From: Candidatus Mycolicibacterium alkanivorans
GTDB lineage: Bacteria > Actinomycetota > Actinomycetes > Mycobacteriales > Mycobacteriaceae
Assembly (NCBI RefSeq): GCF_022760805.1
Contig: NZ_JAIVFL010000001.1
Location: 3,906,001-3,970,000 of the forward strand
DNA: 64,000 nucleotides
Reading direction: 5' to 3'
Of the stretch, positions 5,191 through 15,803 are shown in pieces (the first letter of the stretch is position 1; every line of letters starts with the position of its first letter). The position numbers and the translations under genes are program-made. The notes beneath the pieces are model-generated. The model made no database searches. It was given only the letters and a program-made list of their open reading frames with translations, and was not told the DNA's origin.

Positions 5191-8100
5191 CTAGCGGAAG
5201 TCGCGGCTTCGGGAGGCCGCCCGCATGCCGAGCCTGCCCATCCGCTCGGCGATCACGGTGACCGCCCCGGTGGCGTTCTGCACCTGGCCGCGGATCAGCA
5301 GGGCCGACGCCGTCTGCGCCAGCTTGCGGTGCCGGTTCCACACCCCCGGTGTGCACAGCACGTTGACCATTCCGGTCTCGTCCTCGATGTTCATGAACGT
5401 CACCCCCTGTGCGGTTGCCGGCCGTTGCCGGTGGGTCACCGCACCGGCGATCAGCACCCGGCTGCCGTCGGGAACGTCGAGAAGTTGGTCGGCCGGGACG
5501 ACGCCCATCGCATCGAGGTCTTCGCGCAGGAACTGCGTCGGGTAACTGTCCGGGGAGACCCCGGTGGCCCAGACGTCGGCGGCGGCCAGTTCCACCTCGG
5601 TCATTCCGGGCAGCGCCGGAACGTGCGACGACGACCCCACCCCGGGCAGCCGGCCGGGCCGCTGGGTGGCCGCCGCTCCGGCCGCCCACAGGCCCTCGCG
5701 TCGGGTGATCGAGAAGCAGCCCAGCGCCCCGGCGGTGGCCAGTGCTTCGGTCTGTGGCACCGAAAGCTGCACGCGCCCAGTCAGATCCAGCAGTGAGGCA
5801 TACGGACCGTCTGCCGTTCGCTCGTCAACGATCCGCTGGGCAAGCTCGTCACCGATGTGGCGCACCGCGCCCAAGCCCAGCCGCACCTCGAGCCCGTGGT
5901 TCTCCAGCGTGGCGTGGGCCAGGCTGGCGTTGACGTCGGGGCCGTGCACGGTGACACCGTGCCGACGGGCGTCGGCGACCAGCGACTGCGGCGAGTAGAA
6001 CCCCATCGGCTGGGCGCGCAGCAGCGCCGCGCAGAACGCCGCCGGATGGTGCAGCTTGAACCAGGACGAGTAGAACACCAGCGAGGCGAAGCTCAGCGAA
6101 TGACTCTCCGGGAAACCGAAATTGGCGAATGCCTCCAGCTTCTCGTAGATCCGGTCGGCGACCTCGCCGGTGATGCCGTGCCGCTGGGCCATGCCGGCAT
6201 AGAACCGGTCACGCAGTCGTCGCATCTTCTCGGTGGAGCGCTTGGACCCCATGGCCCGGCGCAGCTGGTCGGCCTCGGCAGCCGAGAAGCCGGCACAGTC
6301 CACCGCCAGTTGCATGAGTTGTTCCTGGAACAGCGGCACCCCCAACGTCTTTCGCAGCGCCGGCTCCATCGACGAATGGTCGTAGGTGACGGGTTCCAGG
6401 CCGTTGCGTCGCTTGATGTAGGGATGTACCGAACCGCCCTGGATGGGCCCGGGCCGGATCAGCGCCACCTCCACCACCAGGTCGTAGAACACCCGCGGCT
6501 TCAGCCGCGGCAGGGTGGCCATCTGTGCGCGGGACTCCACCTGGAACACTCCGACGGAGTCGGCCTTCTGCAGCATCTCGTAGACCGCGGGCTCGGAGAG
6601 GTCGAGACGGGCCAGGTCGACTTCGATGCCCTTGTGCTCGGCGAGCAGGTCGATGGCGTAGTGCAGCGCCGAGAGCATGCCGAGACCGAGCAGGTCGAAC
6701 TTCACCAAACCGATTGCCGCGCAATCGTCTTTGTCCCACTGCAGCACGCTGCGGTTCTCCATGCGCGCCCACTCCACCGGGCACACGTCGGCGATCGGAC
6801 GGTCGCAGATCACCATGCCCCCGGAGTGGATGCCCATGTGCCGGGGCAGGTTCCTGATCTGCGTCGCCAGGTCGATCACCGGCTCGGGAATGTCCTCGAC
6901 GTCCGGTGAGTCGGCCGCGCCGTCCAATTGCTGCTCTCGCAGCGTGTTCCAGCGGCTGATCTGCTTGCTCCAGGCATCCTGCTGACCCTGGGAAAAGCCG
7001 AGGGCGCGGGCCATGTCGCGCACCGCACTGCGCCCGCGATAGGTGATGACGTTGGCGACCTGCGCGGCGTAGTCGCGGCCGTAGCGGTCGTAGACGTACT
7101 GGATGGCCTTCTCGCGCAGGTCGGATTCGATGTCGATGTCGATGTCGGGTGGTCCGTCGCGGGCCAGGGACAGGAACCGTTCGAAGAGCAGACCGTTGGC
7201 GACCGGGTCGACGGCGGTGACCCCCAGCGCGTAGCAGACCGCCGAGTTGGCCGCCGATCCCCGGCCCTGGCACAGGATGTCGTTGCGCCGGCAGAACTGG
7301 GTGATGTCGTGCACCACCAGGAAGTAGCCCGGGAACTTCAGCTTGCCGATGACGTCGAGTTCCCGCTCGATCTGGGTGTACGCCTCCGGCGCGGAGGCGC
7401 GCGGGCCGTAGCGCGCAGCCGCGCCGAGCATGGTCAGCTCGCGCAGCCAGCTGCCCTCGGTGTGCCCGTCGGGTGTGTCGAACGGTGGCAGCTGCGGGGC
7501 GATCAGGGCAAGCTCGAAGGCACACTGCTCACCGAGATCGGCTGCCGCGGTGAGCACTTCGGGATACTGGAAGAACAGCCGGGCCATCTCGTCCCCCGAC
7601 CGCAGGTGCGCGCCACCCAGCGGCGCCAGCCACCCGGCGGCCTCCTCCAGTGACTGACGGGCGCGGATCGCGCCCATCGCCATGGCCAGTCTGCCGCGTT
7701 CAGGCTCGGCGACATGCGCGGCGGTGGTGGCCAGGACCGTCAGCCCGAACCTCGGGGCCAGCGCGGCCAGCGCGGCGTTGCGTTCGCCGTCGAGCGGATC
7801 ACCATGGTGAGTGAGTTCGATGCTGACCCGGTCACTTCCGAACCGATCGACCAGATCGGCTAGCGCTTTGACCGCGGCCTCCGGACCTCCGTTCGAAAGT
7901 GCTTGGCGTACATGTCCTTTGCGACATCCCGTCAGGATGTGCCAGTGCCCTCCGGCGGCCTCGGTGAGGCTGTCGTAGTCGTAGCGCGGCTTGCCCTTCT
8001 CACCGCCGGCCAGATGCGCCCGGGCGATCTGGCGGGACAACCGGCGGTATCCCTCGGGCCCGCGGGCCAACACCAGCAGGTGCGGCCCGGGTGGGTCGGG

Positions 8101-8508
8101 AACCTCGGTGCGCGCGGTATTACCCAGCGACAGCTCGGCGCCGAAGACGGTGCGCATGTCGAGTTCCTTGGCGGCCTCAGCGAACCGCACCACGCCGTAG
8201 AGCCCGTCGTGGTCGGTGAGCGCGATGGCCCGCAGGTCCAGCCGGACGGCCTCCTCGACAAGTTCCTCCGGGGTGCTTGCCCCGTCGAGGAAGCTGTAAG
8301 CCGAATGGGCGTGCAGTTCGGCGTAGGGAACGGTCGAGCGCAGTGGACGTTCGCCGGTCGGCTCGTAGGGTTCACGCCTGCGGGACCAGGCCGGGCTGTC
8401 GCCGCCGTCGGCATGCGGCTCCCCCAGCGACATGCCTGACCGGCGCGGCTTGCTGTTGAGCACCCGCTCCATCTCGCCCCAGCTCAGAGGCCCGTTACGC
8501 CAGTCCAT
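5191..8508 (-). CDS. dnaE2: error-prone DNA polymerase DnaE2
   Basis: A 1105-residue C-family polymerase subunit of the damage-induced mutasome, performing translesion synthesis with ImuA' and ImuB. Seen in order: PHP domain (ELHAHSAYSFLDG, residues 64-76), palm with catalytic aspartates PDIDIDIE (454-461), fingers (GSKRSTEKMRRLRDRF), helix-hairpin-helix, and an OB-fold near the end (ITHRQRP-like VTHRQRPATAQGVTF). ATG 8508 (MDWRNGPLSW) is preferred over the upstream ATG 8529, because the latter lies inside the LexA box and the DWRNG start matches Rv3370c. Induction by DNA damage is expected from that box. Confidence 0.96.
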   Translation of the reverse strand: MDWRNGPLSWGEMERVLNSKPRRSGMSLGEPHADGGDSPAWSRRREPYEPTGERPLRSTVPYAELHAHSAYSFLDGASTPEELVEEAVRLDLRAIALTDHDGLYGVVRFAEAAKELDMRTVFGAELSLGNTARTEVPDPPGPHLLVLARGPEGYRRLSRQIARAHLAGGEKGKPRYDYDSLTEAAGGHWHILTGCRKGHVRQALSNGGPEAAVKALADLVDRFGSDRVSIELTHHGDPLDGERNAALAALAPRFGLTVLATTAAHVAEPERGRLAMAMGAIRARQSLEEAAGWLAPLGGAHLRSGDEMARLFFQYPEVLTAAADLGEQCAFELALIAPQLPPFDTPDGHTEGSWLRELTMLGAAARYGPRASAPEAYTQIERELDVIGKLKFPGYFLVVHDITQFCRRNDILCQGRGSAANSAVCYALGVTAVDPVANGLLFERFLSLARDGPPDIDIDIESDLREKAIQYVYDRYGRDYAAQVANVITYRGRSAVRDMARALGFSQGQQDAWSKQISRWNTLREQQLDGAADSPDVEDIPEPVIDLATQIRNLPRHMGIHSGGMVICDRPIADVCPVEWARMENRSVLQWDKDDCAAIGLVKFDLLGLGMLSALHYAIDLLAEHKGIEVDLARLDLSEPAVYEMLQKADSVGVFQVESRAQMATLPRLKPRVFYDLVVEVALIRPGPIQGGSVHPYIKRRNGLEPVTYDHSSMEPALRKTLGVPLFQEQLMQLAVDCAGFSAAEADQLRRAMGSKRSTEKMRRLRDRFYAGMAQRHGITGEVADRIYEKLEAFANFGFPESHSLSFASLVFYSSWFKLHHPAAFCAALLRAQPMGFYSPQSLVADARRHGVTVHGPDVNASLAHATLENHGLEVRLGLGAVRHIGDELAQRIVDERTADGPYASLLDLTGRVQLSVPQTEALATAGALGCFSITRREGLWAAGAAATQRPGRLPGVGSSSHVPALPGMTEVELAAADVWATGVSPDSYPTQFLREDLDAMGVVPADQLLDVPDGSRVLIAGAVTHRQRPATAQGVTFMNIEDETGMVNVLCTPGVWNRHRKLAQTASALLIRGQVQNATGAVTVIAERMGRLGMRAASRSRDFR

Positions 8509-8521
8509 GCCAGCAGCATAA

Positions 8522-8537
8522 TCGAACATACGTTCTA
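8522..8537 (-). promoter_or_regulatory. LexA/SOS box of dnaE2
   Basis: TCGAACATACGTTCTA (plus strand) matches the mycobacterial LexA consensus TCGAAC-N4-GTTCGA at 11 of 12 specified bases. It lies 14-29 bp upstream of the chosen dnaE2 start, as expected for a repressor site overlapping the promoter. Confidence 0.9.
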
Positions 8538-8595
8538 GAGACAGGGTGGTGGGTATCTTGAGAGCTTCTGCCCCGTCAAACCATCAACGCACCCG

Positions 8596-8614
8596 CGGGC
8601 TTGCGGCAAGACCG
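8596..8614 (+). promoter_or_regulatory. rifamycin-associated element (RAE) upstream of helR
   Basis: The stretch CGGGCTTGCGGCAAGACCG contains the inverted repeat CTTGC-G-GCAAG (8600-8610) that forms the core of the 19-bp RAE found before rifamycin-inducible resistance genes in actinomycetes (consensus recalled as GGGGCTTGCGGCAAGGCCC). It matches about 16 of 19 positions and lies 56-74 bp upstream of the HelD-type gene. Placement and core are seen directly; the rifamycin response is inferred. Confidence 0.8.
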
Positions 8615-8669
8615 GGCCGTCGGCGCAAACTCACTGGTCGAACTACGAAATCGAGGGGGGAAGTGAGCC

Positions 8670-10877
8670 ATGTCGACTCACGCGCACGACCACGAACTGG
8701 AGTCTGAGCGCGGCTACCTGGCCGGGCTCTACGACCGGCTCGACACCAAGCGCATGCGGGTCATGGCCCAGTACCGCGCCGCGCTCGGGGGGCCGATCGA
8801 CGTCCAGGACGGAGGGACCCTGGTGGCCAGGGACGCCGAGGTCCAGGCGCTGGCCCGGTCGATGACGCGGCTGGACGTGGCCGACCATGGCCTGTGTTTC
8901 GGACGGTTGGACGCCATCTCGGGGGAACGGCTCTACGTCGGCCGCATCGGGATCTTCGACGAGCACAACGACCACGAACCGCTGCTGCTCGACTGGCGGG
9001 CACCGGCCGCACGCGCGTTCTACATCGCCACAGCGGCCAGCCCGGAGGGCATGCGCCGGCGCCGTCAGTTCCATTCCCGAGGACGCCGCCTGGTCGATTT
9101 CACCGACGAGGTCTTCGGCCGCCCAGACCCCGACGCCGTCGATGACAACCCGTTCAGCAGTGACGCGGCTCTGCTCGCCGCGGTCAACGCGTCCCGCGGT
9201 GACGGCATGCGCGACATCGTCGCGACGATCCAGGCCGAACAGGACGAGATCATCCGGCTCGATCACCCCGGTGTCCTGGTGATCGAGGGCGGCCCGGGTA
9301 CCGGCAAGACCGTGGTGGCCCTGCACCGCGTCGCCTATCTGCTCTACACCCAGCGGGCCCGGATCGAACGCCACGGTGTGCTGGTCGTCGGCCCCAACGA
9401 GGCGTTCATGAACCACATCGGACGCGTGCTTCCGTCGCTGGGTGAGTCGGAGGTCGTGTTCATGACAGTCGGCGACCTGGTTCCCGGACTGCACGTCACC
9501 GCCGAGGACACCGCGGACGTCGCCCGGATCAAAGGCTCCCTGGCCATGCTCGATGTGCTCGCGGCGGCGGTCGCCGACCGTCAACGCCTGCCCGAGCATC
9601 CGCTGGAGATCCCGTTGGCCGACGTCACGATGCGGATCGAGGCCGACACCGCCCAGTGGGCCGTCGATGAGGCCCGCTCCAGCGGGCTACCGCACAACGC
9701 GGCCCGCGCGGTGTTCCGCGAGATCGTCACCTATGTGCTGACCGAGCGGGCCATCGCCCGGATCGGGCGCGGCTGGCTGACCCGCGACAACCGCGAGGCC
9801 TGGGAGAAGGTGCGGGCCGATCTGCTCAGCGAGCTCGACGACAACCCCCGGTTCGTCGCCGCGCTCGACCAGCTCTGGCCCATCCTGACCCCGCAGGAGC
9901 TGCTGGCCACGTTGTGCACCTCGGCGGAGCGGCTGCATGCGGCCGGTGCCGACCCGGCGCTACAGCGGGAAGTCGGGGATGCCTGGACGGTGTCGGACGT
10001 GCCGCTGCTCGACGAACTGGTCGATCTGCTGGGCCGCGACAAGCCCGACGATGATGCCGGCGAACGGGTACGCAGGGCCGAGACCCGTTATGCCGCAGGG
10101 GTGTTGGAGAACATGATCGCCCGCGAGGACCTGATGGACGACGAGGACCATCTGCTTGCCCAGGACTTGATCGGCGCCGAGGACTTAGCGGAGCGATTCC
10201 TCGAGCGTGACACCCGCGAACTCGCCGAACGCGCGGCCGCCGACCGCGACTGGACGTATCGCCACGTCGTTGTCGACGAGGCACAGGAACTGTCCGAGAT
10301 GGACTGGCGGGTGTTGATGCGCCGCTGCCCGAGCCGGTCGTTCACTGTGGTCGGCGATCTGGCGCAACGGCGTTCGCCGGCCGGGGCGACGTCGTGGGCC
10401 GCGATGCTGGAACCGTACGTGCCCGACCGCTGGGTCTATCGGTCGCTGTCGGTGAACTACCGCACCCCCGCCGAGATCATGGCGGTCGCCGCGTCGCTGC
10501 TCGCCGAGTTCGCACCCGGCGTCCGGCCACCGGAGTCGGTGCGCGCGTGCGGCATTCGGCCCTGGTCGCGGCGCGTCACCGCCGACCAGCTGTCCGCCGC
10601 CGTCGACGACTTCGTGGCGCAGGAGGCTGCCCGCGACGGCACCAGCATCGTGATCGGGCCACCGGACGTGCCCGGCGCGGTGGCACCGTCGGAGACCAAG
10701 GGCCTGGAGTTCGACGCTGTCCTGGTGGCGGAGCCGGACCGGATCCTGGCCGACGGACCGCGTGGCGCGGCCGACCTCTACGTCGCCCTCACCCGGGCCA
10801 CCCAGCGCCTCGGCGTGGTACATCAGGGCCCGCTGCCTCCGGCGCTGGCCGGGCTAAGGCCTACGATTCACTCGTGA
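8670..10877 (+). CDS. helR: HelD-family RNA polymerase recycling ATPase, probable HelR
   Basis: A 735-residue UvrD-like superfamily 1 ATPase. An N-terminal coiled-coil-like arm (about 1-70) is followed by Walker A GGPGTGKT (207-214), a long HelD-specific insertion (about 290-500), the Walker B/motif II VVVDEAQE (533-540), and C-terminal motifs NYRTP and ETKGLEFD plus LYVALTRATQRLG. HelD proteins pull stalled RNA polymerase off DNA; the HelR subtype also displaces bound rifampicin and gives resistance. The RAE upstream favours HelR. ATG 8670 follows the purine-rich GAGGGGGGAAG. The stop overlaps the next gene (GTGA). Confidence 0.9.
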   Translation: MSTHAHDHELESERGYLAGLYDRLDTKRMRVMAQYRAALGGPIDVQDGGTLVARDAEVQALARSMTRLDVADHGLCFGRLDAISGERLYVGRIGIFDEHNDHEPLLLDWRAPAARAFYIATAASPEGMRRRRQFHSRGRRLVDFTDEVFGRPDPDAVDDNPFSSDAALLAAVNASRGDGMRDIVATIQAEQDEIIRLDHPGVLVIEGGPGTGKTVVALHRVAYLLYTQRARIERHGVLVVGPNEAFMNHIGRVLPSLGESEVVFMTVGDLVPGLHVTAEDTADVARIKGSLAMLDVLAAAVADRQRLPEHPLEIPLADVTMRIEADTAQWAVDEARSSGLPHNAARAVFREIVTYVLTERAIARIGRGWLTRDNREAWEKVRADLLSELDDNPRFVAALDQLWPILTPQELLATLCTSAERLHAAGADPALQREVGDAWTVSDVPLLDELVDLLGRDKPDDDAGERVRRAETRYAAGVLENMIAREDLMDDEDHLLAQDLIGAEDLAERFLERDTRELAERAAADRDWTYRHVVVDEAQELSEMDWRVLMRRCPSRSFTVVGDLAQRRSPAGATSWAAMLEPYVPDRWVYRSLSVNYRTPAEIMAVAASLLAEFAPGVRPPESVRACGIRPWSRRVTADQLSAAVDDFVAQEAARDGTSIVIGPPDVPGAVAPSETKGLEFDAVLVAEPDRILADGPRGAADLYVALTRATQRLGVVHQGPLPPALAGLRPTIHS

Positions 10878-11608
10878 CCGCGACACCCGATTCGTCTGAT
10901 CCGCAGCTGCATCCCGCCGAGCCACACCACAGCGGCATCGGTAGCCGGCTGAACTGGCTTCGCGCCGGGGTGCTCGGCGCCAACGACGGCATCGTGTCGA
11001 CCGCCGGAATCGTCGTCGGCGTCGCAGCCGCCACCATGGACCGCGGCCCCATCTTCACCGCGGGCATCGCCGGACTGGCGGCCGGTGCGCTGTCGATGGC
11101 GGTCGGCGAGTACGTCTCGGTGAGCACCCAGCGCGACACCGAGAAGGCCCTGCTCAAGAAGGAACGCGGTGAACTGACCACCCAGCCGGACGCCGAGTTC
11201 GAGGAGCTCACCGCGCTCTACGAGGCCAAGGGGCTGTCGGCGGCCACCGCCCGCACCGTGGCCCAGGAGCTGACCGATCACGACGCGTTCGCCGCGCACA
11301 TCGACGCCGAGCTGGGCATCGACCCCGAGGAGCTGACCAATCCGTGGCAGGCCGCGTTCTCCTCGGCCATCGCCTTCACCGTGGGCGCGATCCTGCCGCT
11401 GCTGGCAATCCTGCTGCCGCCGCCACCGGTTCGCATACCCATCACGTTCGTCGCCGTGCTCACCGCCCTGGCGTTCACCGGCTGGGCCAGCGCCCGCCTG
11501 GGCGGAGCCAACGTCGCCCGCGCGATTCAGCGGGTGGTCATCGGCGGGGCGCTGGCCATGCTGATCACCTTCGGCATCGGCCACCTGGTGGGCGGCGCGG
11601 TCGGCTGA
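10874..11608 (+). CDS. VIT1/CCC1 family iron/manganese transporter
   Basis: A 244-residue membrane protein. It has a soluble N-terminus, then helix 1 with the family motif ANDGIVSTAGIVVGVAAA, helix 2 with MAVGEYVSVSTQRD (metal-ligand Met/Glu region), a cytosolic helical domain (about 95-155) rich in Glu/Asp, and three C-terminal helices. Family members export Fe(II) or Mn(II) from the cytosol. The GTG start at 10874 overlaps the helR stop, so it should be co-transcribed and coupled with helR; the longer in-frame extension inside helR is a shadow. Confidence 0.9.
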   Translation: MTATPDSSDPQLHPAEPHHSGIGSRLNWLRAGVLGANDGIVSTAGIVVGVAAATMDRGPIFTAGIAGLAAGALSMAVGEYVSVSTQRDTEKALLKKERGELTTQPDAEFEELTALYEAKGLSAATARTVAQELTDHDAFAAHIDAELGIDPEELTNPWQAAFSSAIAFTVGAILPLLAILLPPPPVRIPITFVAVLTALAFTGWASARLGGANVARAIQRVVIGGALAMLITFGIGHLVGGAVG

Positions 11609-11717
11609 CCGTCGGCGCTACGGCACCGAGAGCGTAGAGATCGTGTCTCGCTCGGTCCATTCGTCGCACTGCTGAAAATCTCACCCGCCGAGGCCGTCGA
11701 CAAGGCACGCTATTCCC

Positions 11718-12425
11718 ATGCACCTGTCGCGAACCCGATCCATCCTCGCGGTGATCGCCGCTCTCTTCGCGGTCTTCCTCGTCGCCTCGTGCAGTACTCC
11801 CGCACCCAAGGAACGCACTATCACGCTGACGTTCATCCGGCACGCGGAGTCGCAGTCCAATGCCGACGGGGTGATCAACACCGAGGTCCCGGGACCGTCG
11901 CTGACCGCTGCCGGGGAGCAGCAGGCGGCAGCGGTGGCCAACCGGCTGAAGGGCAACGGCTACGACGGCATCTACGCCTCGGAGATGGTCCGCACCCAGC
12001 AGACTGCCGCACCGATGTCCATGGCGCTGGGTGAACCCGTCAACGTGCTGCCAGGACTCAACGAGATATCCGCGGGCTGGTTCAACGGCGAGCAGATGGA
12101 CCGCGCCGGCGCGACGTACATGGTGGCGCCGATGGACTGGATGCGAGGCGACACCAACTTCAGCATCCCGGGATCGGTCAGCGGGCGGGAGTTCAATGGC
12201 AAGTTCACCTCCGCGGTGCAGCGCATCTACGAAAGCGGGGACACCAAGCCCGTCGCCTTCTCCAGCGCCGCGTCGATCATGCTGTGGACACTGATGAACG
12301 TGCGCAACGGCAAGGACAGCCTGATGACCGACCACCCGCTGCCCAACACCGGCCGGGTGGTGATCACCGGCAATCCGGTGATCGGCTGGACGCTCGCAGA
12401 CTGGGACGGCATCGGCTCGTTCTGA
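11718..12425 (+). CDS. histidine phosphatase family lipoprotein
   Basis: A 235-residue protein with a signal sequence and lipobox VASC (Cys about residue 25), so it is probably anchored on the outer face of the membrane. The histidine phosphatase hallmark TFIRHAESQSN follows at about 38-48 with its catalytic His, then SEMVRTQQTA. The usual second GHG/SHG histidine motif reads AFSSAASIM, so catalysis by the standard route is uncertain. No convincing ribosome binding site precedes ATG 11718. It lies 6 bp before the nucleoside hydrolase, probably one transcript. The physiological substrate is unknown. Confidence 0.82.
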   Translation: MHLSRTRSILAVIAALFAVFLVASCSTPAPKERTITLTFIRHAESQSNADGVINTEVPGPSLTAAGEQQAAAVANRLKGNGYDGIYASEMVRTQQTAAPMSMALGEPVNVLPGLNEISAGWFNGEQMDRAGATYMVAPMDWMRGDTNFSIPGSVSGREFNGKFTSAVQRIYESGDTKPVAFSSAASIMLWTLMNVRNGKDSLMTDHPLPNTGRVVITGNPVIGWTLADWDGIGSF

Positions 12426-12431
12426 GCTGAC

Positions 12432-13493
12432 ATGGCCCATCACGAGGCGCTGCCCGTCTTCGCCGATGTCGACACCGGCGTCGACGATGCGATGGCACTG
12501 GTCTATCTGATCGCCAGTTCCGACGCCGAGTTGGTGGGCGTCGCCTCCACGGGCGGCAACGTCGACGTCGACCAGGTCTGCCGCAACAACCTCGGGCTGC
12601 TCGAACTATGCCGGGCCGGTGACATCCCGGTCTCGCGGGGAGCCGAACAGCCGCTGGCTGACACGATGCGAACCGCCGAAGATACCCATGGCCCTGCGGG
12701 TCTGGGTTACGCCGAGCTACCCGCCCACGACCGCAAACTCACGTCCTACGACTCCGCCGAGGCCTGGGTCCGCGCCGCGCACGCCCACCCCGGTGAGCTG
12801 ATCGGCCTGGTGACCGGTCCGCTGACCAACCTCGCGCTGGCCGCCCGCGCCGAACCTGAGCTGCCGTCGCTGTTGCGGCGGCTGGCCATCATGGGCGGAT
12901 CGTTCGATTACCGCGGCAACACCACGCCGGTGTCCGAGTGGAACATCAGCGTCGACCCTGAGGCCGCCGCCGAGGTATTCGCCGTGTGGGGGCGGGCCGC
13001 GGAATCGAAAGCGATTGAACCGCATCAGCTTCCGACAGTGTGCGGGCTGAACCTGACCGAGAACATCGCGCTGACGCCGGCGATATTGAGCCGGCTGGCC
13101 AATGCAGCCGAGGCGTCGTCGGTGGCGATGAGTGTGCTCGACGCCAGGGGAACCCGTTCGGTGGCCGACAACCCGCTGATCCGCGCACTCGAGGACGCGA
13201 TGCGGTTCTACTTCGAGTTCCACTTCGACCAGGGCGAGGGCTATCTGGCCCATCTGCACGACCCCCTGGCGGCGGCGGTGGCACTGGATCCCGGCATCGT
13301 CGCGACCCGGGCGACCACCGTCGACGTCGAACTGACCGGGACACTGACACGCGGTATGACGATCGCCGACTGGAGCCGGCGGTGGGGTCGGGAACCCAAC
13401 GCGCACATCGGGGTCGACGTCGACCCGGCAGCCTTCTTCGACCGGTTCATCGAGCGGGTCGGCCCGTTCGCGCGGCGTCTGGTTCATTCGTAG
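12432..13493 (+). CDS. iunH: nucleoside hydrolase (inosine-uridine preferring type)
   Basis: A 353-residue IU-nucleoside hydrolase that cleaves the N-glycosidic bond of ribonucleosides for base salvage. The calcium-binding aspartate cluster DVDTGVDDAMAL is at 11-22; MGGSF and EWNISVDPEAA carry further active-site residues (Asn/Asp); HDPLAAAVALDP near the end supplies the active-site His and Asp. Matches Rv3393. Its last 10 bases overlap the tail of imuB on the opposite strand. Confidence 0.9.
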   Translation: MAHHEALPVFADVDTGVDDAMALVYLIASSDAELVGVASTGGNVDVDQVCRNNLGLLELCRAGDIPVSRGAEQPLADTMRTAEDTHGPAGLGYAELPAHDRKLTSYDSAEAWVRAAHAHPGELIGLVTGPLTNLALAARAEPELPSLLRRLAIMGGSFDYRGNTTPVSEWNISVDPEAAAEVFAVWGRAAESKAIEPHQLPTVCGLNLTENIALTPAILSRLANAAEASSVAMSVLDARGTRSVADNPLIRALEDAMRFYFEFHFDQGEGYLAHLHDPLAAAVALDPGIVATRATTVDVELTGTLTRGMTIADWSRRWGREPNAHIGVDVDPAAFFDRFIERVGPFARRLVHS

Positions 13494-15064
13494 ACCCCTT
13501 CGAGGTACCACCGCCGCTGGCGATAACACAGCAGCAGCGCGGTCCCCGGTTCTTCATCGGACCGGTTGCCCACCAACACCTGAACGCGCGCCGTGCGGCC
13601 TGCCCGGGATTGCTCGGCCTGGTCCCACCACCGTTCGTCGACCGGCCACGGCCCGGCCCACCAACTCAGCTCACCCCGGTACTGGCCGTCCAGCCGGGCC
13701 GGCTCGGCGCTGAAGATCCCGCGCGAGGTCACCCGGACCGGATTGCCCTGGGCGTCAAGCAGTTCCACCGGATCGTCGAGAAGCACGGTCGGCGCCGGCT
13801 CGGGCAGCCGCCCCGGCCACGGCCGGTCGGGGTCGGCCCTGGGCACCAACTCGTCGCCGAGCGGGGTCAAGGTGATGCGCTCGGCGGGCCCGCGACCGCC
13901 GGACAGGACCGGCAGCTGCACGGCCTCCTGCCCCAGCAGGCCCTGCACCCGCACCAGTGCCCGCCGGGCCCGCAACCGGTCCTCCTCCCCGACGCCGCCC
14001 CACAGCGGCAGCTGAAGCGCCTCTGCGGAAACAACTTCCACCGGCTGCAGCCGCAGCATCGTCACCGGGGCACTCGGCCGGTCGGTGGGCCTGGCTCGAG
14101 TGAGCCAGCCGTCGAGCTGCCAGCGCACCCGGTCGGCGGTGGCGTCCTCGGTCAACGGCTCGGCGCACCGCCACACCCGGGTCAGCTCGCCGCCGTTGGC
14201 GGTGACGGCGTGGATGGCCAGCCGGGTGCAGCCGACCCCGGCCGACCCCAGCCTGGAGTGCAGGCTCGCGGCCAGCGTCCGCCCCGCGAATGCCGCCGCG
14301 TCGACCCGGTCGATCGGCGGATCGCAGGTGAGCACGGCGTCGAGTTCCGGCGGCGGCTCGCGGCCCGACGGTCCGCGCACCGGCTCAGCGCGGGCGAACC
14401 GATGGGCGGCCACCGCGTCGGCCCCGAACCGGGAGGCGACGTCGCTACGGGACAGCTCGGCGAACTGACCCAGAGTGCGAATACCCATGCGCCACAACAG
14501 ATCGGCCAGCTCTTCGCGACCGGGACCGGACAGGCTCGGTTCGGTGGCCAGCTGCCGGATCGACAGCCCCGACAGGAACGCCGCATCCGCACCGGGCTCG
14601 AGCACACGTCCGGCCCGGGCGGCGAACACGGCCGTCGCCATCTGATCGGCGACTCCCACCTGGCATTCGGCGCCGGCCGCGGCGACGGCGTCCACCAGCC
14701 GCTCGGCGGCCACCTGCTCGGAGCCGAAGTAGCGGGCGGCCCCGCGAACCGAAAGCACCAGCAGGCCCGGCCGCAGCACCTCCGCACGGGGCACCACCTC
14801 GTCGACCGCCGCCGTCACCCCTTCGAAGAACCGGGCATCACGGGCCGGGTCGGCGGTGACCACATGCAGCTGCGGACAGCGCGCCTGCGACTCGCGCCGG
14901 CGCAGCCCGCGACGCACACCGGTCGCGCGTGCCGCCGCCGAACAGGCGATCACCCGGTTGGCCAAGGTGACCGCGACGGGGGCTGTCGCCGGCAGCCCCG
15001 CCGCCACGGCCGCGGCGACGGCCGGCCAGTCCATGCACCAGATCGCCAGCACCCGGGCGGTCAC
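13484..15064 (-). CDS. imuB: mutasome Y-family polymerase-like protein ImuB
   Basis: A 526-residue Y-family fold (palm, fingers, little finger) that lacks the acidic catalytic residues; the N-terminal motif reads VLAIWCMDWPAV. It serves as the hub that links DnaE2 and ImuA' to the sliding clamp. The clamp-binding motif QLPLWGG is visible at about 351-357. GTG 15064 is chosen because it lies one base after the imuA' stop and gives the family-typical start. The C-terminus ends LCYRQRRWYLEGVYE as in Rv3394c. Confidence 0.95.
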   Translation of the reverse strand: MTARVLAIWCMDWPAVAAAVAAGLPATAPVAVTLANRVIACSAAARATGVRRGLRRRESQARCPQLHVVTADPARDARFFEGVTAAVDEVVPRAEVLRPGLLVLSVRGAARYFGSEQVAAERLVDAVAAAGAECQVGVADQMATAVFAARAGRVLEPGADAAFLSGLSIRQLATEPSLSGPGREELADLLWRMGIRTLGQFAELSRSDVASRFGADAVAAHRFARAEPVRGPSGREPPPELDAVLTCDPPIDRVDAAAFAGRTLAASLHSRLGSAGVGCTRLAIHAVTANGGELTRVWRCAEPLTEDATADRVRWQLDGWLTRARPTDRPSAPVTMLRLQPVEVVSAEALQLPLWGGVGEEDRLRARRALVRVQGLLGQEAVQLPVLSGGRGPAERITLTPLGDELVPRADPDRPWPGRLPEPAPTVLLDDPVELLDAQGNPVRVTSRGIFSAEPARLDGQYRGELSWWAGPWPVDERWWDQAEQSRAGRTARVQVLVGNRSDEEPGTALLLCYRQRRWYLEGVYE

Positions 15065-15065
15065 A

Positions 15066-15752
15066 TCAGCCCACCCTCGACCGGACGGCGCGCCCCCGCG
15101 CACGCACGGACAACTGCACCCGGCTGATCCGGCCACAACCCGGTACCGGAACACCTGCGCGACCAGCGGTCATCTCGTAGCCGCGCACCCGGGCATCGAG
15201 CCGGATCGAGGCGTCCTGCCACTCCCCCCGAGTGACCACCACGGTGCAGCCCTTCTGCCGGGCCCGGGCCACCACTGCCCGCGCCCGGGTGGCGGTCACG
15301 GTTCGGCCGGCCAAGCCGACCACCACCAGGTCCATCCCGTCCATCAGCACCGCGGCCACCTCGACGGGGTCGGTTCCCGGATCCGGGATCACCGCGAGCC
15401 GGCTCAGGTCGGCACCCATCTCCGCGGCGGCCAGCAGACCGAAATCCGGCAGTCCGACGACGGCCACATGGCCACCGCCGGCCGTCACCGCGGCGGCCAT
15501 GCTCACCGGCAGCGAGAGGGCTCCGGAAGCCACCGCCACCGCGCCGCGGGGCAACCCTGCCGGGAGCACGTCAGCCAGCGATTCTGGCACCGGCAGCAAA
15601 GTTTCCGAGGCCGGAAGAAGCTCGTCGTCCCGCTCGGTGACAGGGCGGGTGCCACCCACCTTCCCGGACACCGCCGCCATCTGGCGACGGAGCTGTTGTA
15701 GCTGCTCAGCACGGTCAAGCTGCCGCTTTTCCAGGGCAATCGCCGCCGTCAT
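15066..15752 (-). CDS. imuA: mutasome RecA-like accessory protein ImuA'
   Basis: A 228-residue RecA-fold-like protein ([34 protein letters not shown]) related to ImuA and Rv3395c, needed with ImuB and DnaE2 for damage-induced mutagenesis. Start ATG 15752 is supported by GGAGGTG just upstream (about 4 bases) and by the family N-terminus [18 protein letters not shown]. First gene of the imuA'-imuB operon, with a LexA box 36-51 bp upstream. Longer in-frame extensions run antisense into the aldolase gene and are not used. Confidence 0.93.
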
Positions 15753-15787
15753 CGCCCACCTCCAGCTGCGATCGACATCCACTGTGT

Positions 15788-15803
15788 TCGAATGTATGTT
15801 CGA
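15788..15803 (-). promoter_or_regulatory. LexA/SOS box of imuA'-imuB
   Basis: TCGAATGTATGTTCGA (plus strand; TCGAACATACATTCGA on the coding strand) matches the mycobacterial SOS consensus TCGAAC-N4-GTTCGA with one half-site change. It lies in the 184-bp divergent region between imuA' and the aldolase gene, 36-51 bp before the imuA' start. Confidence 0.88.

Follow-up and report, generated by a model that had tools for sequence, protein, structure and literature searches.

helR beside SOS-type genes in mycobacteria, with apparent repeated loss of its rifamycin-associated element

The helR–dnaE2 intergenic region

In a 64,000-nucleotide stretch of the Candidatus Mycolicibacterium alkanivorans genome (contig NZ_JAIVFL010000001.1, positions 3,906,001 to 3,970,000; hereafter the window), the gene helR lies back to back with dnaE2. 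The former (8670–10877, forward strand, 735 amino acids) encodes, by family profiles, a class II HelD protein, a predicted ATPase for RNA polymerase recycling and rifamycin protection. The latter (5191–8508, reverse strand; PRK05672, 1596.6 bits, cut-off 939) encodes the error-prone DNA polymerase of the SOS mutasome. An initial annotation of this DNA placed both a LexA box and the core of a rifamycin-associated element (RAE) in the 161 bp between the two genes (8509–8669, given a dnaE2 start at 8508), and both are present there. What it missed is that helR lies beside SOS-type genes across much of the genus, often without an RAE. The dnaE2 neighbourhood thus appears to be one case of a genus-wide pattern in which helR sits next to SOS-type genes and the RAE has been lost repeatedly.

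The ATG at 8508 is the most plausible dnaE2 start; the mechanically derived start of this open reading frame (ORF), an ATG at 8529, falls within the LexA box. The box itself (TCGAACATACGTTCTA, 8522–8537) has one mismatch to TCGAACN4GTTCGA and lies 132 bp from helR. It is directly adjoined by a candidate dnaE2 −10 hexamer, TATGCT (8515–8520, reverse strand), which has a similar position in relatives. On the forward strand, a TATCTT 16 nt past the box (8554–8559) may be a weak −10 element directed towards helR. The position of the P1 −10 element (8583–8588, forward) holds ATCAAC where the family has TATAgC, and P1 is therefore degenerate in the window. The RAE core CTTGCGGCAAG (8600–8610, forward) is exact, with the flanks cccGCGGG-core-ACCGGGC, and is followed after 15 nt by the P2 −10 element CAAACT (8626–8631, forward).

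The initial annotation's assignment of the HelD-type gene as helR is borne out by this promoter anatomy and by two class II NCBIfam profiles that score above their cut-offs (HelD_MYCSM, 1347.5 bits against 1051; motor_HelR_2, 1343.8 against 1100). A search of solved structures matched the protein over its whole length to M. smegmatis HelD with 1148 bits. In the alignment, the DDED tip of the primary-channel (PCh) loop is intact (MDDEDH) and identical to that of M. smegmatis HelD, where the accessible portion of the structural report assigns it to residues 482–485 (PMC7749160). By its sequence and its RAE promoter anatomy, then, the window's helR is an ordinary member of the class II HelD/HelR genes. 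A search of the window's own genome for an Arr rifamycin ADP-ribosyltransferase (PF12120) gave no match.

The RAE core at 8600–8610 is the sole exact copy in the 4,050,246-base genome. This number is not significant by itself, because a backwards control pattern of the core gives three exact matches in the same genome; we therefore rejected the lone copy as stand-alone evidence. The significance of the element rests instead on its place and conservation. We collected helR loci from the best-scoring 150 of the 235 genomes with a match, among 396 genomes of the genus searched. Of these 150 loci, 84 have an RAE with no more than one mismatch in the 300 bp preceding helR. These RAE-positive loci share the consensus TATAgCGcacccGGGGG-CTTGCGGCAAG-GCCcGGGTgATGgCGCACAATCGCTGgCC, and their layout, with the P1 −10 element at −17 and the P2 −10 element fifteen nucleotides after the core, fits the two-promoter RAE arrangement described for helR of M. 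smegmatis and M. abscessus in the available part of the published account (PMC10719064). Their P2 hexamer begins with C in 83 of 84 cases and reads CANNNT in 82, and it never reads TANNNT (0/84).

LexA boxes and the RAE upstream of helR across the genus

A helR locus was counted as LexA-linked when a box with at most one mismatch lay within 300 bp upstream of the gene, which is the case for 63 of the 150 loci. The rest of the same loci holds 32 LexA sites in 905,625 bp, so that only about 1.6 linked loci are expected by chance, and 60 motifs with permuted half-sites link between 0 and 4 loci each. The divergent neighbour in the 63 linked loci is dnaE2 in 24, an Rv2578c-type radical S-adenosylmethionine (SAM) gene in 35 and a 13E12-like gene in two, with two neighbours unassigned; over all 150 loci the SAM gene occurs 37 times and the 13E12-like gene three times. 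All 24 loci of the dnaE2–helR type carry the box. The SAM query matches NF038135 (rSAM_Rv2578c) with 521 bits. One of the two 13E12-like queries is a DUF222 protein and the other has no Pfam match, so this class was in part assigned by eye. The box also occurs in 19 of a second set of 80 helR loci, taken from named contigs, and all 19 are mycobacterial.

The same boxes accompany the neighbours elsewhere. Among the best-scoring 30 loci for each protein from 60 genomes of the genus searched, a LexA box was found at dnaE2 in 30/30 and at the SAM gene in 28/30, with helR present in the stretch in six of the dnaE2 loci and four of the SAM loci. The box is, by these counts, the neighbouring gene's own, being present also where the stretch examined lacks helR. 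Such neighbours resemble genes on the M. tuberculosis RecA-dependent list, which, in the portion of the source available, names dnaE2 together with a 'DNA repair photolyase' and five HNH endonucleases (PMC8151990). Our guess is that the photolyase is Rv2578c. A literature search that left most subscription papers outside its scope found no report joining Rv2578c and LexA, and likewise none on HelR together with dnaE2.

When the upstream 1.5 kb was grouped by similarity, 146 loci fell into 29 contexts. The SAM loci form one context (the downstream side, too, is common to 36 of 37), the dnaE2 loci a second and the two boxed 13E12-like loci a third and fourth; the box of locus L137 may add a fifth. 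At least four boxed contexts among 29 gives p=2.4e-4 at the background rate and 0.013 at a tripled rate, on a rough counting of contexts. The 300-bp rule misses some links: when the 27 loci in which it finds no RAE and no LexA box were followed up to 1000 bp upstream, boxes appeared at 457 bp (L168) and 333 bp (L255). A further locus, L151, has its SAM gene at a distance of 316 bp, with no box in the 300 bp covered by the rule. By eye, many dnaE2–helR loci (L112–L135), with or without an RAE, show a GACGA(A/G)GATGG-like sequence beyond the LexA box, which we did not see in the window.

Loci with no RAE of at most one mismatch within 300 bp upstream were classed as RAE-minus, an assignment that depends on the threshold; 39 of the 63 LexA-linked loci fall into this class, among them four that keep a two-mismatch match within 300 bp (L113, L167, L178 and L216) and one, L190, for which only 90 bp of upstream sequence was at hand. 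L190 and L116, each with less than 250 bp upstream, were left out of the full-length tests, which therefore cover 148 rows.

The absence of the RAE goes with a shorter spacer. Of the 39 linked RAE-minus loci, 34 have the LexA box 24–89 bp from helR; in the 24 linked loci with an RAE, the window included, the distance is 113–191 bp. Median distances are 59 bp (18 RAE-minus loci) versus 135.5 bp (6 RAE-positive loci) for the dnaE2 type, and 65 bp (20) versus 135 bp (15) for the SAM type. The box is thus nearer in RAE-minus loci by about 70–76 bp as judged by medians (p=1.8e-8, not tree-corrected). Between the close relatives L117 and L119, the difference amounts to 80 bp that held P1, RAE and P2. 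The remaining five linked RAE-minus loci keep a long spacer (118–157 bp), in which the RAE is decayed or unrecognisable. Parsimony on a quick HelR tree counts 14 RAE changes among LexA-linked loci, four of them in the dnaE2 group and nine in the SAM group.

Some of these loci also carry a possible new −10 element. In the SAM type, 11 of 20 RAE-minus loci have a TANNNT 16–29 nt past the box, versus 1 of 15 RAE-positive loci and 5.8% of random windows; this count covers all 35 linked SAM-type loci and is not tree-corrected. In nine of the 11, on at least three tree branches, the hexamer stands 29–43 nt before the start codon, in the place of P2, and in three other loci a C/GANNNT remnant of P2 lies 32–44 nt past the box; the rows for these positions and remnants were hand-picked. 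A gain of TANNNT after loss of the RAE, seen here on few branches, is what would be expected if a repressor had replaced the inducible element.

The HelR protein itself retains Walker A (GPGTGKT) and DEAQ(E/D) motifs in all 150 mycobacterial rows. At the PCh-loop tip it is altered in L167, L190, L245 and L253 (SMDDEEQLRAQH or SMEDEEQLRAQH), all LexA-linked and RAE-minus by the rule used, and the tip reads ADED in two further LexA-linked RAE-minus rows. The helR of L196, where the 300 bp upstream lack both RAE and LexA box, contains an internal stop (residue 431 of the aligned stretch) and is probably a broken gene.

Neighbouring genes and competing explanations

Downstream of helR, a VIT1/CCC1-family transporter gene (10874–11608, forward strand; PF01988, 236.4 bits over the full profile) begins with a GTG placed in the helR stop codon. 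The initial annotation read this 4-nt overlap (GTGA), which does exist in the window, as a sign that the transporter is induced together with helR. Its proposed conservation check came out differently for the two features it named: the RAE recurs, as given above, and the overlap was seen in no relative. The helR–VIT1 spacing is −4 in the window and 370–2287 bp in all 14 relatives of the dnaE2–helR clade where the stretch analysed extends to VIT1; in 9 of the 24 dnaE2-type loci VIT1 fell outside the fetched stretch. A DUF899-type ORF of about 230 amino acids stands between the two genes in 9 of the 10 relatives with ORFs listed, L130 being without it. One such intervening protein (L035) was scanned and matches PF05988 with 186 bits; no match to the DUF899-type protein was found in the window's genome, in a search that had no positive control. 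Moreover, TANGNT-N6-GTG, a form of leaderless mycobacterial promoter, is found at the VIT1 start in 15/15 loci against a background of about 0.05 per kb over loci. In the window this element is TACGAT (10862–10867, forward), within the 3′ end of helR.

A single RAE-driven helR–VIT1 operon, linking the protection of RNA polymerase with metal export, is accordingly very improbable. The overlap speaks for it, since read-through would co-transcribe the two genes, while the wide gaps, the intervening ORF and VIT1's own −10 element in relatives speak against it, and we rejected helR–VIT1 as a conserved unit. The overlap is better explained by a deletion that, among the genomes compared, occurred here only. 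The position of VIT1 beside helR is probably accidental, and any co-induction would possibly reflect read-through rather than conserved design.

Further along lie genes presumably belonging to the same mutasome as dnaE2. We take the ORF at 13484–15064 (reverse strand; PF00817, 51.2 bits) to be imuB, the dnaE2 mutasome partner, from its sequence and its neighbours, and that at 15066–15785 (reverse, start approximate, no Pfam match) to be imuA′ from its position; a LexA box at 15788–15803 precedes the latter. dnaE2 and imuB/imuA′ are thus about 5 kb apart (5191–15803), each with its own LexA box. Between them are helR, VIT1, a phosphoglycerate-mutase-like lipoprotein gene and a nucleoside hydrolase gene, the last two named by eye.

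This setting raises the idea of dual input by design in the window, in which rifamycin would act through RAE/P2 and DNA damage through a LexA-limited start after the TATCTT at 8554, together with the mutasome; if true, target protection would be joined to a supply of mutations. The presence of both LexA box and RAE/P2, the TATCTT 16 nt past the box and the nearby imuA′–imuB genes with their own box are consistent with it. Nevertheless, we consider it unlikely: the −35 region is poor, a single hexamer may be due to chance at the random-window frequency given above, and TANNNT at 16–29 nt past the box occurs in 0/23 other dnaE2-type loci.

The reading we favour, at about even confidence, is that helR is RAE/P2-driven beside SOS genes, that lineages losing the RAE leave helR under LexA, and that VIT1 abuts helR through a private deletion. 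In the window, helR would be driven from the RAE/P2 promoter, with the RAE over the −35 region and CAAACT as −10 element. Rifamycin would raise HelR, and stalled RNA polymerase would be cleared and stripped, a function expected from the protein class. In one mycobacterial clade helR and dnaE2 diverge from a shared region that contains a LexA box, and elsewhere in the genus helR lies beside other SOS-type genes. In many such lineages the RAE was presumably deleted or decayed, with helR remaining next to the LexA box. LexA would then limit helR transcription, and RNA polymerase recycling would join the DNA-damage response. The window keeps both RAE and LexA box, and its VIT1 gene, brought against helR by a deletion seen in this genome only, would mostly use its own leaderless promoter. 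We infer that helR may have shifted towards SOS control in many mycobacteria. More tentatively, and with the balance of our judgement somewhat against it, helR may in dozens of species have passed out of the rifamycin regulon and come under LexA control as an SOS gene, on several independent occasions, through deletions that would set its promoter beside the LexA operator of the divergent dnaE2 or Rv2578c-type gene.

Several observations weigh against such a shift, and a serious competitor, whose probability we put a little below even, is that the genes are mere neighbours: LexA would control only the SOS gene, helR would use its own promoters, and the RAE would often be lost where rifamycin exposure is absent. 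It is the divergent genes that the boxes serve, and both dnaE2 and the SAM gene carry them also where the stretch examined holds no helR; box conservation is therefore no proof of helR control. At 113–191 bp in linked RAE-positive loci, the box might not reach the helR promoter at all. Among the 86 loci lacking a LexA box, 26 have no RAE either at the threshold used. The element is absent more often from LexA-linked loci (38/62 versus 26/86; Fisher p=2e-4), yet this excess loses its significance when independent pairs are compared (6 pairs; median p 1). None of the 18 dnaE2-type RAE-minus loci has a TANNNT for helR in the 60 nt that follow the box, and 38 of the 147 inner branches of the HelR tree are drawn open for low support. 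Three things nonetheless fit poorly with mere adjacency: boxed helR contexts exceed chance even after collapse to 29 contexts, RAE loss is accompanied by a nearer box, and TANNNT appears in SAM-type lineages at 16–29 nt past the box.

If the shift to LexA control is real, removal of stalled RNA polymerase would belong to the DNA-damage response. Fluoroquinolones and other SOS inducers would then raise rifamycin tolerance together with DnaE2 mutagenesis, and DNA-damaging drugs could thereby increase tolerance and mutation supply at once. The loci also offer a natural promoter series, with RAE alone, RAE plus LexA box, and LexA box alone. The series makes testable how the RAE senses rifamycin, the deletion relatives showing what is dispensable, and whether the original job of HelR was DNA-damage-linked clearance of RNA polymerase rather than drug defence.

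Comparison with known systems

The window's HelR belongs to the same family as HelR/class II HelD of M. abscessus (MAB_3189c), S. venezuelae and M. smegmatis (MSMEG_2174), and its RAE region resembles that of helR in M. smegmatis and M. abscessus, for which the available part of PMC10719064 describes an RAE with two promoters. The locus nearest to M. smegmatis HelD (L254, 97% over a 149-amino-acid piece) carries an RAE but lacks a LexA box in the 300 bp upstream, whereas the window's helR shares its upstream region with dnaE2. Study of a locus of this kind may be why the link between helR and LexA went unseen. Literature searches on HelD were uninformative, as matches were swamped by the verb 'held', and the paper on the LexA regulon of S. 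venezuelae (PMC9380542) does not name helR in its main text.

A further likeness is B. subtilis helD, a HelD gene induced by rifampicin through its promoter architecture; it differs in being class I and in sensing the drug through two promoters that are convergent. The accessible portion of the same source (PMC12802891), from which these points are taken, also states that actinobacterial rifampicin-protection genes carry an RAE. The window's VIT1 matches the full profile of the VIT1/CCC1 family, and its position against helR is seen in no relative. The mycobacterial SOS regulon includes dnaE2, imuA′–imuB, a photolyase-like gene and HNH endonucleases, and it is beside neighbours of this kind, with their LexA box, that helR is found in the window and across much of the genus.

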